The position numbers and the translations under genes are program-made. Shown in pieces: positions 37,817 to 42,010 of a DNA stretch of 42,010 nucleotides; position 1 is the stretch's first letter; every line of letters starts with the position of its first letter. The DNA is taken from assembly GCA_012719355.1 (NCBI GenBank), contig JAAYAM010000325.1, forward strand, positions 1 to 42,010, given 5' to 3'. The stretch comes from Acidobacteriota bacterium (GTDB taxonomy: Bacteria; Acidobacteriota; UBA6911). The notes under the pieces are model-generated. The model made no database searches, was not told the origin of the DNA, and saw only the letters and a list, made by a program, of their open reading frames with translations.

Positions 37817-37976
37817 CTACAAAGGTCGCTCCCGACGCAAAACCGGCCGTGTTTTGTTCGGCTGGAAATCGGGCCTTACCTGCGTTCGCCTTACCGAGTC
37901 CGCGAGGTACACGCGCTTCGATCGAGTGTGGTATCATGCGGGGTTTACAGAAGAAACCATTGATCGAGAGAGGGTT

Positions 37977-39674
37977 ATGGAAGTCCGCAACAGCAACAGG
38001 GATGACAGAGAGACCACGGATTTTGTCAGGGCGATTGTCAGGGAAGATCTGCAGGCGGGGAAGAACGGCGGACGGGTCGCGACACGTTTTCCCCCCGAGC
38101 CCAACGGTTATCTGCATATCGGGCATGCGAAGTCGATCTGTCTGAATTTTGGTATAGCCCGAGAGTATGGCGGGACCTGTAATCTCCGCTTCGATGACAC
38201 CAATCCGGCGAAGGAAGAGGTCGAGTATGTGGAGGCGATAAAGGAAGACGTTCGCTGGCTTGGTTTCGACTGGGGAGATGGACTTTACTTCGCGTCAGAC
38301 TATTTTGAACGGCTCTACGGCTACGCAGTGCAGCTCATCCGGCTTGGAAAGGCCTATGTCGACAGTCTGACTGCGGAAGAGATACGCGCTTACCGCGGCA
38401 CCCTGACTGAGCCGGGGAAGGAGAGTCCGTATCGAAACAGATCGGTGGAAGAGAATCTCGACCTTTTTACGCGGATGCGCGCCGGGGAATTCGAAGACGG
38501 AAGCCATGTCCTGAGGGCAAGGATAGATATGGCTTCAGCCAATCTGAACATGAGGGACCCGACGCTTTACCGCATCCGCAGGATGGCTCACCATCGCACC
38601 GGCGACAAGTGGTGTATTTACCCGATGTACGACTTCGCACATTCTCTCTCGGATTCGCTGGAAGGGATCACGCACTCGATCTGTACACTGGAGTTCGAAG
38701 ATCACAGGCCACTGTATGATTGGTTTCAGGAGACACTGAAGGTCGAGCGTCGGTCCAGGCAAATTGAGTTTGCGAGACTCAACCTGAACTACACGGTCAT
38801 GAGCAAGAGGAAACTGCTTGAACTGGTCCAGGAAGGCCTTGTCCGCGGCTGGGACGATCCGCGCATGCCGACGATCTGCGGTTTGCGGCGGCGCGGGTAT
38901 ACTCCGGAGTCGATCCGGAATTTCTGCGAGCGCATCGGTGTCGCCAGACGGGACAACGTGATGGACGTGGCGCTGCTTGAGCACTCACTGCGGGAAGACC
39001 TGAACCTCAGGGCGCCGCGCGTTATGTGCGTCCTGCGTCCGCTGCGGCTCATAATCGACAACTACCCTGAAGGGCGAGTGGAAGAGCTTCAGGCCGTCAA
39101 CAATCCTGAGGATCCGTCTGCGGGAACCAGGCCGGTGCCGTTTTCAAGGGAGCTGTACATTGAGCAGGAGGACTTTCTCGAGAATCCTCCGAAGAAGTTT
39201 TTCCGTCTTGCCCCCGGACGAACGGTACGGCTTCGCTACGGTTACCTGGTTACGTGCACGAACGCGGTGAAGAATGACAAGGGGGAAGTAACCGAAGTGC
39301 ATTGCAGCTATGATCCCGATTCCCTGTCGGGAGAGGCGGGCGGCCCTAGGGCGAAGGCCACGCTGCACTGGGTTTCGGCGGCTCATTCCCTGCCTGCGGA
39401 AGTCCGGCTTTACGACCGGTTGTTCATGTCGGAAAACCCCGGGGAAGGAAAAGAGGATTTCAAGGCGGACCTGAATCCGGATTCACTGAAGGTGCTCCAG
39501 TCGTGCAGGATGGAGCCGAGTCTTGCCGGAGCGCAGCCTGGCGGGCGATATCAATTCGAGAGGCTCGGCTATTTCTGCGTGGATCCGGACTCGTGCCCCG
39601 GGTCGCTGGTCTTCAACCGGACCGTGACGCTGCGTGACCAGTGGGCGAAGATAGTGCGCGGCGGAGCGCTATAG
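37977..39674 (+). CDS. glnS: Glutaminyl-tRNA synthetase
   Basis: GlnRS charges tRNA-Gln directly with glutamine. The 565-residue class I enzyme has the HIGH motif [15 protein letters not shown] (HIGH at 47-50), [14 protein letters not shown], the GlnRS-specific [22 protein letters not shown], and the KMSKS-equivalent VMSKRK (MSKRK at 275-279). The C-terminal beta-barrel anticodon-binding region follows. The frame is open to 37854, but the family starts near [26 protein letters not shown] precedes this ATG. A tRNA-Gln gene lies 65 nt downstream. Confidence 0.96.
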
Positions 39675-39739: not shown

Positions 39740-39813
39740 TGGGAGATCGTCTAATGGTAAGACGGGTGGCTCTGGACCATCTGATCGGGGTTCGAATCCC
39801 TGTCTCCCAGCCA
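39740..39813 (+). tRNA. tRNA-Gln (anticodon CTG)
   Basis: A complete cloverleaf of 74 nt can be folded. The acceptor arms are TGGGAGA/TCTCCCA, the D-arm GTC/GAC with loop TAATGGTAA, and the anticodon arms GGTGG/CCATC with loop CTCTGGA (anticodon CTG at 39772-39774). The T-arm is CGGGG/CCCTG with loop TTCGAAT. The discriminator is G and CCA is encoded. The U1-A72 pair and G73 are GlnRS identity features. It reads CAG codons. A T-rich run follows the CCA. Confidence 0.97.
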
Positions 39814-39941: not shown

Positions 39942-40241
39942 CTACCGGGAACCGGCGAGTTTAACTACCTTGTTATAGAGTCCCATAATCAATAGCGTCG
40001 GAGCCCATTGCCCGACAAACAGACTGACATCTCTCTTTCCCATTACCTGCAGTGCGGCCGATCCGATCATGGATCCCACTGCCATCCAGAGAAAAGTATC
40101 GGAGGGGAGCTTCGCCGTCTGTGTTTCGATTGAGCGGGCAACCCGCCCTTCCTTGTGTTCGGGACGCGGTCCCCGGCTCCCTGCAACCGACTCAGGCCCC
40201 GGTATGTTTATGTTTTCTTTTCCATATTCAAAATCCTGCAT
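39942..40241 (-). CDS. Small two-helix membrane protein of unknown function
   Basis: The 99-residue protein has a hydrophilic N-terminal half (DFEYGKENINIPGPESVAGS, then Lys/Arg/Glu-rich) and two membrane segments (DTFLWMAVGSMIGSAALQVM and VGQWAPTLLIMGLYNKVVKL). I recognise no functional domain. Translation should be efficient: GAGGAGGAG lies 4 nt before the ATG. Similar short proteins of unknown role occur in Acidobacteriota by my recollection. It is transcribed alone, away from the XDH-like gene. Confidence 0.7.
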   Translation of the reverse strand: MQDFEYGKENINIPGPESVAGSRGPRPEHKEGRVARSIETQTAKLPSDTFLWMAVGSMIGSAALQVMGKRDVSLFVGQWAPTLLIMGLYNKVVKLAGSR

Positions 40242-40632
40242 ATCTCCTCCTCAGACCAAGCCGACGCAAGTCGAGCACCAACTCCCCCGGCTGCCGTGGT
40301 AAAGGCTCTTCACGACTGAGCTTCTGCTCGACCCGAACCACAGACGTTTTTCGGCAGGGTGCGATGCAGGGGAATTTTTCCTGTCATCCCCTGCCGGCCG
40401 ATTCCCATCCATCATTTGCAGAATTTCAGCACTATAAGTGCCGGTCTGTAGTAAGATTCGTACCCGGAAATTCAGCGGAAACTGAATCAGCAGGCTTTCA
40501 GGGCCGGAGTGCCGTCGAACCGCTTTCGTAATTTGATCACTCTGTCTGGCGCCGCTCGCTTTATCCGTGATCGAAGAGGACCGTCATCATAGAAGCGGCG
40601 AAGAGAATGAAAGGAAAAGGAGGCGCATTACA
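40242..40632. other. 391-bp divergent intergenic region
   Basis: No convincing gene is seen. It contains a 7-bp-stem hairpin (GCAGGGG 40366-40372 with CCCCTGC 40388-40394), a 13-bp palindrome GCACTATAAGTGC (40429-40441), and TTCAG/CTGAA arms near 40470-40490. The AAAAGGAGG ribosome-binding site of the next gene is at 40615-40623. The spacer must carry the two divergent promoters, but no clear -35/-10 pair could be assigned. Confidence 0.4.
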
Positions 40633-42010
40633 ATGGCTGATCTTGCAGGAGTCAATGGGCAGAGGAAGGAGTTCAGGGTTGTCGGGAAACCGAATCTTCC
40701 AGGAGTGCTTTCCTGGTCGCAGGCGACGGGTGTCGCAAAATTCGGCGTCGATTACGTCGTTCCCGACATGCTCGAGGCCAGATTTCTCAGAAGCCCGCAT
40801 GCTAATGCCCGTATTAAATCGATAGACATAACCAAAGCCAAGGCCATCCCCGGCGTCGTCGACATCGTTACCTGGGAAGATGCTGACGCCAGAACCTTTC
40901 TGAGCGACTACGCAGACCAGGAAGGAGCCGAAGTAGGCGCCATCGTCGTGGCGGAAAACGAAGACATTTGTGAAGAGGCGTTGCGCCAGATTGTCGTGGA
41001 CTGGGAGGTCTTGCCTCATGTGGTAGATCTTCTCGAGGGAAGGAAGCCTGATGCGCCCGTCATCCGTCCGCCCGCCCCGGCGAAAAAAGCTGGAGGGGGT
41101 ATGGGTATGGGGTTCGGCGGCGGTGGCGGGAACAACCCTCCCAAGAAGGGGAACGTCTCTTTTTCCAATATGAATGACGGCGACATTGAAGCCGGTTTCA
41201 AGGAAGCGGATCACATCGTCGAATTCGACGTCAACACGTCCGCCTTTGCCGGTCATATTCCCAATCCTCTGGGAACTGTCGCATGGTGGTTTGACGATCC
41301 ACTCAGAGGCGAAGGGCAGAACCTGCAGATCGAAGGCGTCCCCTGGGGCCATGACCAGGTGGCAAGAATGAACCGGGTGGCTCCGGAGAAGGTCTTCCAG
41401 CACTGCATGTTCGTCGGGGGCAGGTATTGCGACTGGGGTATCCGAAAATCCCAGCAGATCACCCCGTTGCTTGCCAAGAGAGCTGGAAGGCCCGTTCGGT
41501 GCATCAACAGTCGCTATGACATGTACGACTTCAACTTGAATCAACGCTACGTGCACATGAAAGTCGGCTTTAAGAAGAACGGCCTGATTACGGCTATCGA
41601 TGATTTCTCCATCGCCGACGGCGGAGTTCAGGGAAGCTCCAATTTCGGGAATACAATGGACCAGACTTACGGCCCCTACTTCACCACCCGGTGCAAGAAC
41701 GTCAAACAAAGCATGGAGGTTGTCGACAGCAACCGCGGAAAGATGTACGTCAGCGGCCAGCACAATCCAATGAGCTGGGATTCTCTGATGGTGGCCCTGT
41801 ACGTGATCGCCGAAAAGCTCGGGAAAGACCCGATCGAGATCGCCACCCTGAATCTGCATGGGCCGGAGTCACAGGACGATCCCAATCCCGTTCCCAGCTA
41901 TGAAGCGTGTGTGGCGGCACTGAAGAAGATGATGAACTGGAACTGGCATCCGGCAGGCGCTCGAAAGCTCCCCGACGGCCGTTTGCACGGAGTAAGCTTC
42001 CGGTATAACC
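40633..42010 (+). CDS. Xanthine dehydrogenase-family molybdenum-binding subunit, divergent (partial, 3-prime end cut)
   Basis: The frame runs from ATG 40633, with AAGGAGG 9 nt upstream, to the window edge: 459 codons without a stop. Residues 31-82 form the a/b hammerhead domain (ATGVAKFGVDYVVPDMLEARFLRSPHANARIKSIDI, then IPGVVDIVTWEDA). The molybdenum-cofactor domain follows. It is unusual: VGGRYCDWGIRK (261-272) stands where GGGFGGK is expected and IPNPLG replaces MEP near 209. A Gly-rich insert, GGGMGMGFGGGGG, lies at 154-166. LAKRAGRPVRCINSRYDM and LGKDPIEIATLN keep the family pattern. Substrate is unknown; the FeS and FAD partners would be outside the window. Confidence 0.82.
   Translation, partial: MADLAGVNGQRKEFRVVGKPNLPGVLSWSQATGVAKFGVDYVVPDMLEARFLRSPHANARIKSIDITKAKAIPGVVDIVTWEDADARTFLSDYADQEGAEVGAIVVAENEDICEEALRQIVVDWEVLPHVVDLLEGRKPDAPVIRPPAPAKKAGGGMGMGFGGGGGNNPPKKGNVSFSNMNDGDIEAGFKEADHIVEFDVNTSAFAGHIPNPLGTVAWWFDDPLRGEGQNLQIEGVPWGHDQVARMNRVAPEKVFQHCMFVGGRYCDWGIRKSQQITPLLAKRAGRPVRCINSRYDMYDFNLNQRYVHMKVGFKKNGLITAIDDFSIADGGVQGSSNFGNTMDQTYGPYFTTRCKNVKQSMEVVDSNRGKMYVSGQHNPMSWDSLMVALYVIAEKLGKDPIEIATLNLHGPESQDDPNPVPSYEACVAALKKMMNWNWHPAGARKLPDGRLHGVSFRYN

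Follow-up and report, generated by a model that had tools for sequence, protein, structure and literature searches.

What is encoded by a gene that carries the large-subunit signature of aldehyde oxidases and xanthine dehydrogenases with its cofactor motifs rewritten? An earlier note on this DNA proposed an uncharacterised subfamily with a different substrate or cofactor arrangement, and a decayed gene was the alternative to be weighed. The window, i.e., the whole stretch of DNA analysed, is the complete contig C281 (42,010 bases) of a 4.57-Mb Acidobacteriota genome in 377 contigs.

The window gene and its truncation

The gene lies at positions 40633–42010 of the forward strand, as do all of its features described below. 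Its frame is open from the ATG at 40633 to the last base of the window (459 codons), and AAGGAGG, a likely ribosome-binding site (40617–40623), was read nine bases ahead of the ATG. Both Pfam matches, Ald_Xan_dh_C (3.6e-16) and MoCoBD_1 (1.8e-18), were over cut-off, bearing out the large-subunit signature. Judged by these matches, the ORF is the 5′ part, i.e., the N-terminal 459 codons, of a molybdenum (molybdopterin-binding; Mo) subunit gene of the xanthine dehydrogenase/aldehyde oxidase type, 'GISH' subfamily.

The replacements described in the earlier note were found where it had placed them. IPNPLG (residues 209–214; 41257–41274) stands in place of the (M/L)EP segment, with Asn for Glu. 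In place of GGGFGGK is VGGRYCDWGIRK (residues 261–272; 41413–41448), which aligns with GGGFGA of 4-hydroxybenzoyl-CoA reductase (4-HBCR) and has Cys at residue 266 (41428–41430). In addition, SGQHNPMSWD (41752–41781) takes the place of the FRGFG-type loop and aligns with AMRGHG of 4-HBCR. Three of four active-site changes are thus seen in the window copy; the fourth, at the position where relatives have His for Glu, is beyond its end. The Gly/Met-rich low-complexity run (residues 154–166; 41092–41130) is present as claimed, but its value as a meaningful signal did not survive comparison: its length varies, it is missing in two of eight paralogs, and it matches a stretch with pLDDT <50 (162–174) in the model of the C146 paralog, as a variable linker would.

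The gene does run off the window, and the reason is the contig end. The last 127 bases (41884–42010) match the end of contig C211 exactly, and C211 likewise breaks off within a paralog, at the same codon. This 127-bp stretch common to the two paralogs accounts for the stop inside the gene: the truncation is an assembly break at a repeat (k = 127 presumed), not decay. Contig C186 starts with the 3′ 190 codons of a family-type Mo gene, which may belong to the window gene or to the C211 copy.

No FeS/FAD partner or pathway gene was found upstream of the gene in the window, and its downstream side is cut by the contig end. The region at 37854–39674 reads by eye as glutaminyl-tRNA synthetase and is directly followed by a tRNA-Gln (CTG) gene at 39740–39813. 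Between this tRNA gene and the gene for the Mo subunit is a 99-aa ORF on the reverse strand (39942–40241).

Similarity searches and predicted structure

The best PDB match of the window fragment was nicotinate dehydrogenase (1.1e-18), with 4-HBCR second (1.9e-16); all 35 matches were xanthine oxidase (XO)-family subunits by name. A superclade profile, A2, comprised 37 rows: 29 from the family and eight related ones (two from clade GVAH and six from the Glu-keeping clade RCEQ, both described below). Its best match among solved structures was the 4-HBCR alpha subunit (2.2e-90, 307 bits), and CoxL was next (248 bits). Single-sequence comparisons, with the window fragment and with C146, do not favour 4-HBCR, which speaks against closeness; on sequence, the nearness to this enzyme is weak.

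Among NCBIfam models, the window fragment scored best with TIGR03194 (97.7 bits, cut-off 994.55). The full C146 paralog reached 155.1 bits with the same model and 162.4 bits with XdhA (NF043082, cut-off 780), and matched MoCoBD_2 over the Pfam cut-off. Membership in 4-HBCR, XdhA, CoxL or any listed NCBIfam equivalog was rejected, as scores were far under the cut-offs.

The structure of C146, predicted on the A2 alignment, had a pLDDT of 85.5 and a pTM of 0.86. The top two Foldseek matches of this model were 4-HBCR chains (TMq 0.80 and 0.78). VIA-align gave Z scores of 27.4–32.4 among the 50 entries listed, with 4-HBCR 18th and oxidases mixed in. As predicted from domains and model, the fold is that of XO-superfamily Mo subunits (a/b hammerhead, MoCoBD_1 and MoCoBD_2). 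With such similar VIA-align scores across the XO-family chains listed, comparison of the modelled fold does not tell function.

Conservation of the active-site changes

The relatives were the best 80 of 391 from a collection scan. The alignment held 80 Mo proteins of at least 600 aa out of 84 clustered, shorter ones (L012 and L080 among them) being left out. The main family contributed 59 rows, the window copy excluded; two are cut before the His position and one is unreadable at the Cys position.

At the position of the catalytic Glu of the GxGE motif (Glu726 of 4-HBCR), His was found in 57/57 family proteins reaching it among these best 80 of 391 relatives, and Glu in 11/11 sister and 8/8 canonical proteins. 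Excerpts of PMC10420851 describe this Glu as activating Mo-bound oxygen in hydroxylation and as essential to that chemistry. At the position of the Gly that follows Phe in GGGFGG, 58/59 family rows have Cys (the other being an X), and all 11 sister and all eight canonical proteins have Gly; the family version of this GGGFGG(K) pterin loop is GG(K/R)YCDW. Likewise, the Glu of MEP is Asn in 58/59 rows of the family and Glu in 11/11 and 8/8 of the two comparison groups. In place of the FRGFG loop, the family has SGQHxPFNWD or similar, with Gln in 59/59 rows and Trp and Asp in 59/59. The small gut clade GVAH (Hungatella, Clostridiaceae) has His at the Glu726 position and Cys in the pterin loop in both of its proteins.

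At most of the cofactor-loop positions chosen, the family departs from the outgroups and is itself nearly invariant (Asn, Cys, Asp, Gln, Trp, Asp, Ser and His), while loop glycines G274, G750 and G753 are retained as in most outgroup proteins. The loops surround the Mo-pterin in XO-family structures. Since the IPNPLG and VGGRYCDWGIRK replacements are nearly invariant in the 59 aligned relatives, neither can be put down to chance or decay. A His in the window gene and in the C211 copy, both of which end before the position, would be expected from these relatives.

Paralogs, phylogeny and distribution

The genome has eight family genes: the window gene and those on contigs C146, C211, C181, C76, C52, C86 and C324. 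The seven other paralogs are 83 to 50% identical to the window gene, and six are full length (about 750–790 aa). Ordinary XO-type genes are also present. NG86 dN/dS was 0.055–0.16 in six pairs (five paralogs, one homolog) of eight tried, ratios that are rough because dS (1.1–2.6) is near saturation. No stop codons were found inside the family frames listed, and the family looks to be under purifying selection.

In a tree of 61 rows, the family (27 rows) formed one clade (SH-aLRT 99). It grouped with the GVAH pair (SH-aLRT 100) and then with a Glu-keeping sister, here called RCEQ (SH-aLRT 100), in a superclade of 40 rows that excluded 4-HBCR. With four motif blocks masked and the window gene added (62 rows), the clade was kept (SH-aLRT 99). 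The trees are quick ones, with SH-aLRT values, without bootstrap, and several outgroup rows are on long branches. The simplest reading of these sequences would be one Glu-to-His change at the base of family plus GVAH. A single clade that holds when the motif columns are masked and stays far under the NCBIfam equivalog cut-offs upholds the proposal of an uncharacterised subfamily. No description of it was found in the open-licence literature, judged mostly from listings. The clade appears to be new as a branch, and not a 4-HBCR member, within an XO superfamily fold that is itself known.

All 10 genomes of the window's genus (its own included) carried the family, as did none of five from three other genera of the same taxonomic family. 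A survey of 297 sampled genomes of the phylum, in which three candidates per genome were scored, found it in nine, all of the window's genus (one of 166 genera; own genome included). Named contigs with the family came from Acidobacteria MAGs and from two MAGs with Deltaproteobacteria in the title (Myxococcota by their tree-output label). The many Bacillota members included Sporobacter termitidis DSM 10068, a Papillibacter MAG, Oscillospiraceae and other Clostridia. Some Bacillota record titles name sheep or buffalo rumen, rectum or cecum, and other isolate codes among the hosts presumably stand for termite guts and digesters. Of the five XO-type genes matched in S. termitidis, three are family members by our own reading of the match table (loci L050, L112 and L113); two of these are followed by FAD genes and one is an orphan. 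The distribution is patchy and therefore suggests horizontal transfer.

Partner subunits and neighbouring genes

The search for FeS and FAD partners raised by the earlier note had a divided outcome, as they were found in part of the family loci and not upstream of the window gene. The window's genome has four family-type FeS–FAD pairs. Those on C86 and C52 adjoin Mo genes; those on C32 (a 9-kb contig; L115) and C114 (L114) have no Mo match on their own contig. Relative to the C86 FAD subunit, identity was 80% for C52, 76% for C32 and 65% for C114, and 41% for C140. The C114 FeS protein is harder to assign (54%, against 48% for C140). Six of the eight Mo genes have no FeS/FAD gene adjacent in the stretches examined. 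Because the catalytic genes outnumber the modules (eight against four) and are mostly unlinked to them, the arrangement suggests interchangeable catalytic subunits. An MFS transporter gene adjoins the Mo gene of C211, and another, 46% identical to it, is near the C114 pair.

A number of Bacillota loci have the order FeS–Mo–FAD, L026 and L050 being complete examples. Their FAD subunit (~780 aa) has a GltD-like unit (Fer4_20 plus Pyr_redox_2) inserted in a FAD_binding_5/CO_deh_flav_C protein, as identified with Pfam on L050 (L050:12389-14716) and extended by clustering to 17 loci (L050 and 16 others). To our knowledge, a GltD-like unit inside a FAD subunit is an unusual architecture. The four family-type FAD subunits of the window's genome lack this insert, given that their open frames are only 316–365 aa.

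FAD subunits scored about equally as XdhB and as 4-HBCR-beta. A C-x(n)-C-x7-C pattern, covering three of the four cysteines of a 4-HBCR-beta-like insert, was present in 20/20 family, 7/7 sister RCEQ and 3/6 canonical neighbouring FAD subunits; in 4-HBCR itself, the extra Cys insert of the FAD subunit carries an Fe-S cluster. In FeS subunits, a C2H2-like motif precedes the ferredoxin domain in 20/26 family, 2/2 GVAH, 3/7 sister and 0/5 canonical proteins, one ORF counted (L082) being a fragment; Pfam finger models score the motif below cut-off. Examples of this finger-like N-terminus are L026:6028-6699, L015:3547-4380 and L083:2692-3282; the C86 and C32 copies have it in degenerate form. RRNFLK, which by eye resembles a Tat signal, is present in the FeS subunits of C52 and C32. 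XdhC was present in 4/4 genomes tested, and two family operons (L026 and L028) are preceded by a gene read as MocA.

The GVAH pair (L073 and L074), a second Glu-to-His clade with the loop RYCDF, occurs with a FAD subunit and a 350-aa protein of no Pfam family; the same type of protein is found beside the Mo genes of loci L015, L043 and L080.

Near Mo genes were URO-D-like genes in five loci (one Pfam-checked), glycyl-radical enzymes in five Bacillota loci (L033, L039, L044, L058 and L070) and Old Yellow Enzyme-type genes in three (identified with Pfam in L015 and by eye in L039 and L070). The glycyl-radical enzymes are PFL2/dehydratase-like and fell below every NCBIfam cut-off. A DMSO-reductase-family protein ~5 kb from a Mo gene (L046:1887-4784) matches a Pfam pyrogallol-hydroxytransferase-like domain, and DUF364/DUF4213-type genes were seen after two operons and near one paralog. 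HGD-D (benzoyl-CoA-reductase-like) genes were present in 7/8 genomes, and no 4-HBCR over cut-off was found in the nine genomes tested, the window's included. URO-D copy number was also tried as a marker of aromatic O-demethylation and discarded, as it did not separate carriers from non-carriers (4–18 copies in eight genus mates, 14 in the window's genome and 1–29 in 12 non-carriers).

Comparison with known enzymes

The family resembles 4-HBCR of Thauera aromatica (1rm6) in the fold of the alpha subunit (TMq 0.80), in being matched best by it at the level of the superclade profile, in the C-x(n)-C-x7-C part of the extra FAD-subunit insert, which half of the canonical neighbours (3/6) have as well, and in an anaerobic aromatic setting. 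It differs in that Glu726 is His, GGGFGA is GG(K/R)YCDW and AMRGHG is SGQHxP; furthermore, the family is outside TIGR03194 (155 bits against 994.55) and apart in the tree. With XdhA (NF043082) the family has domain order and, in part of its loci, partner subunits in common, whereas the catalytic Glu and GGGFGGK of XdhA are replaced and the score (162 bits) is under the cut-off of 780. The RCEQ clade (Desulfobacteraceae, Dehalococcoidia, Pelotomaculum and others) belongs to the same superclade and has the FAD Cys pattern (7/7) and, in part, the finger-like FeS N-terminus (3/7), but retains Glu (11/11) and the Gly at the Cys position (11/11).

The Cu-binding motif of Mo-Cu CO dehydrogenase is AYxCSFR, and chain 8uem_A shows AYACSFR in the profile alignment. 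This Cu-binding Cys loop aligns with SGQHxPxxWD or a similar stretch, whereas the family Cys is in another loop. A functional comparison is offered by Ucdh of Enterocloster bolteae, an XO-family enzyme that, according to excerpts of PMC12771579, removes a phenolic OH of urolithin C reductively with NADH and is closest to 4-HBCR (32.7%). The same excerpts state that its authors expect further reductive XO members. Ucdh is like the family in being an XO enzyme of an anaerobic Clostridium-type bacterium, a likeness taken from its description in these excerpts.

Proposed function and alternatives

As far as sequence can tell, the product of the window gene is a catalytic subunit from a separate branch of the XO superfamily. 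We tentatively read the family as an anaerobic, 4-HBCR-like Mo enzyme acting on plant or lignin phenolics, most likely reductive, with His as proton donor and with shared electron modules. The subunit would bind a Mo-pterin dinucleotide cofactor, with the XdhC/MocA system responsible for its maturation, and a few shared FeS–FAD modules would serve several catalytic paralogs that differ in substrate range. Plant- or lignin-derived phenolics would be reduced by removing or moving an aromatic C–O bond, as in 4-HBCR, with His in place of Glu donating the proton. NAD(P)H would supply the electrons in the operons of Bacillota, via the GltD-like domain of the FAD subunit. The Tat-like signals on two FeS subunits of the window's genome make an exported, membrane-coupled complex probable there. 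This reading was weighed highest because of the nearest matches by profile and by fold, hosts that are anaerobes, the neighbouring genes and the lifestyle of S. termitidis (excerpts of PMC4585845 and PMC8359953); the first of these papers describes it as growing only on a restricted set of methoxylated aromatics.

An oxidative Mo hydroxylase or dehydrogenase acting on an aldehyde, an aromatic aldehyde or an N-heterocycle appears somewhat unlikely. His would then be a general base, with electrons passing to quinone or cytochrome in the exported Acidobacteriota enzymes and to NAD(P)+ in Bacillota. Most XO-family members catalyse oxidations (excerpts of PMC12771579), and nicotinate dehydrogenase is the best PDB match of the window fragment. 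The roughly equal XdhB and 4-HBCR-beta scores of the FAD subunits also count here, and so do the Tat-like signals of the two FeS subunits, although these fit an oxidase feeding a membrane chain and a reductase fed by one equally well. Set against it are the replacement of the very Glu that activates Mo-bound oxygen (excerpts of PMC10420851), the GltD-like domain of the Bacillota FAD subunits, which points to a link with the NAD(P)H pool, and the fact that the best profile match is the reductive 4-HBCR.

The suggestion of a different substrate or cofactor arrangement gained from the pairing of Glu-to-His with the pterin-loop Cys, from which a further step may be taken. In a non-standard Mo centre, Cys and His (with Asn, Gln and Asp) would ligate Mo or a second metal and catalyse a reaction new to the family. 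CO dehydrogenase illustrates how one Cys can add a metal to the XO fold; here, by alignment, the Cys sits at the Gly-after-Phe position of the GGGFGG loop, and the cofactor-loop positions chosen are mostly changed and nearly invariant. The retained G274, G750 and G753, as in most outgroups, point the other way, and both XdhC and the partner genes in the operons speak for a dinucleotide cofactor of the ordinary kind, so that we consider such a centre quite unlikely. A combined version, in which a pocket rebuilt by Glu-to-His, Gly-to-Cys and Glu-to-Asn changes holds Cys/His-ligated Mo or a second metal and carries out new phenol C–O chemistry with swappable subunits, is unlikely as well. That these are non-catalytic or decaying paralogs is very improbable. 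The catalytic Glu, whose loss had been named beforehand as a sign of a decayed gene, is indeed gone, and the window copy is cut and has no partner genes upstream. The cut, however, is an assembly break, the family frames listed are free of stops, and dN/dS is low in the six pairs, even with dS near saturation. With His invariant (57/57), selection that looks purifying, and operons with FeS and FAD partners, the loss of Glu does not amount to decay.

Implications

A conserved clade that combines Glu-to-His with a pterin-loop Cys is a natural test of the workings of the XO family and of whether it runs without its Glu. Excerpts of PMC12771579 indicate, with Ucdh as the example, that a reductive XO-family member can be expressed and assayed. 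Because the hosts of the clade include an isolate living on methoxylated aromatics, it may supply steps still missing from the anaerobic breakdown of phenol and lignin in habitats such as termite guts and rumens.
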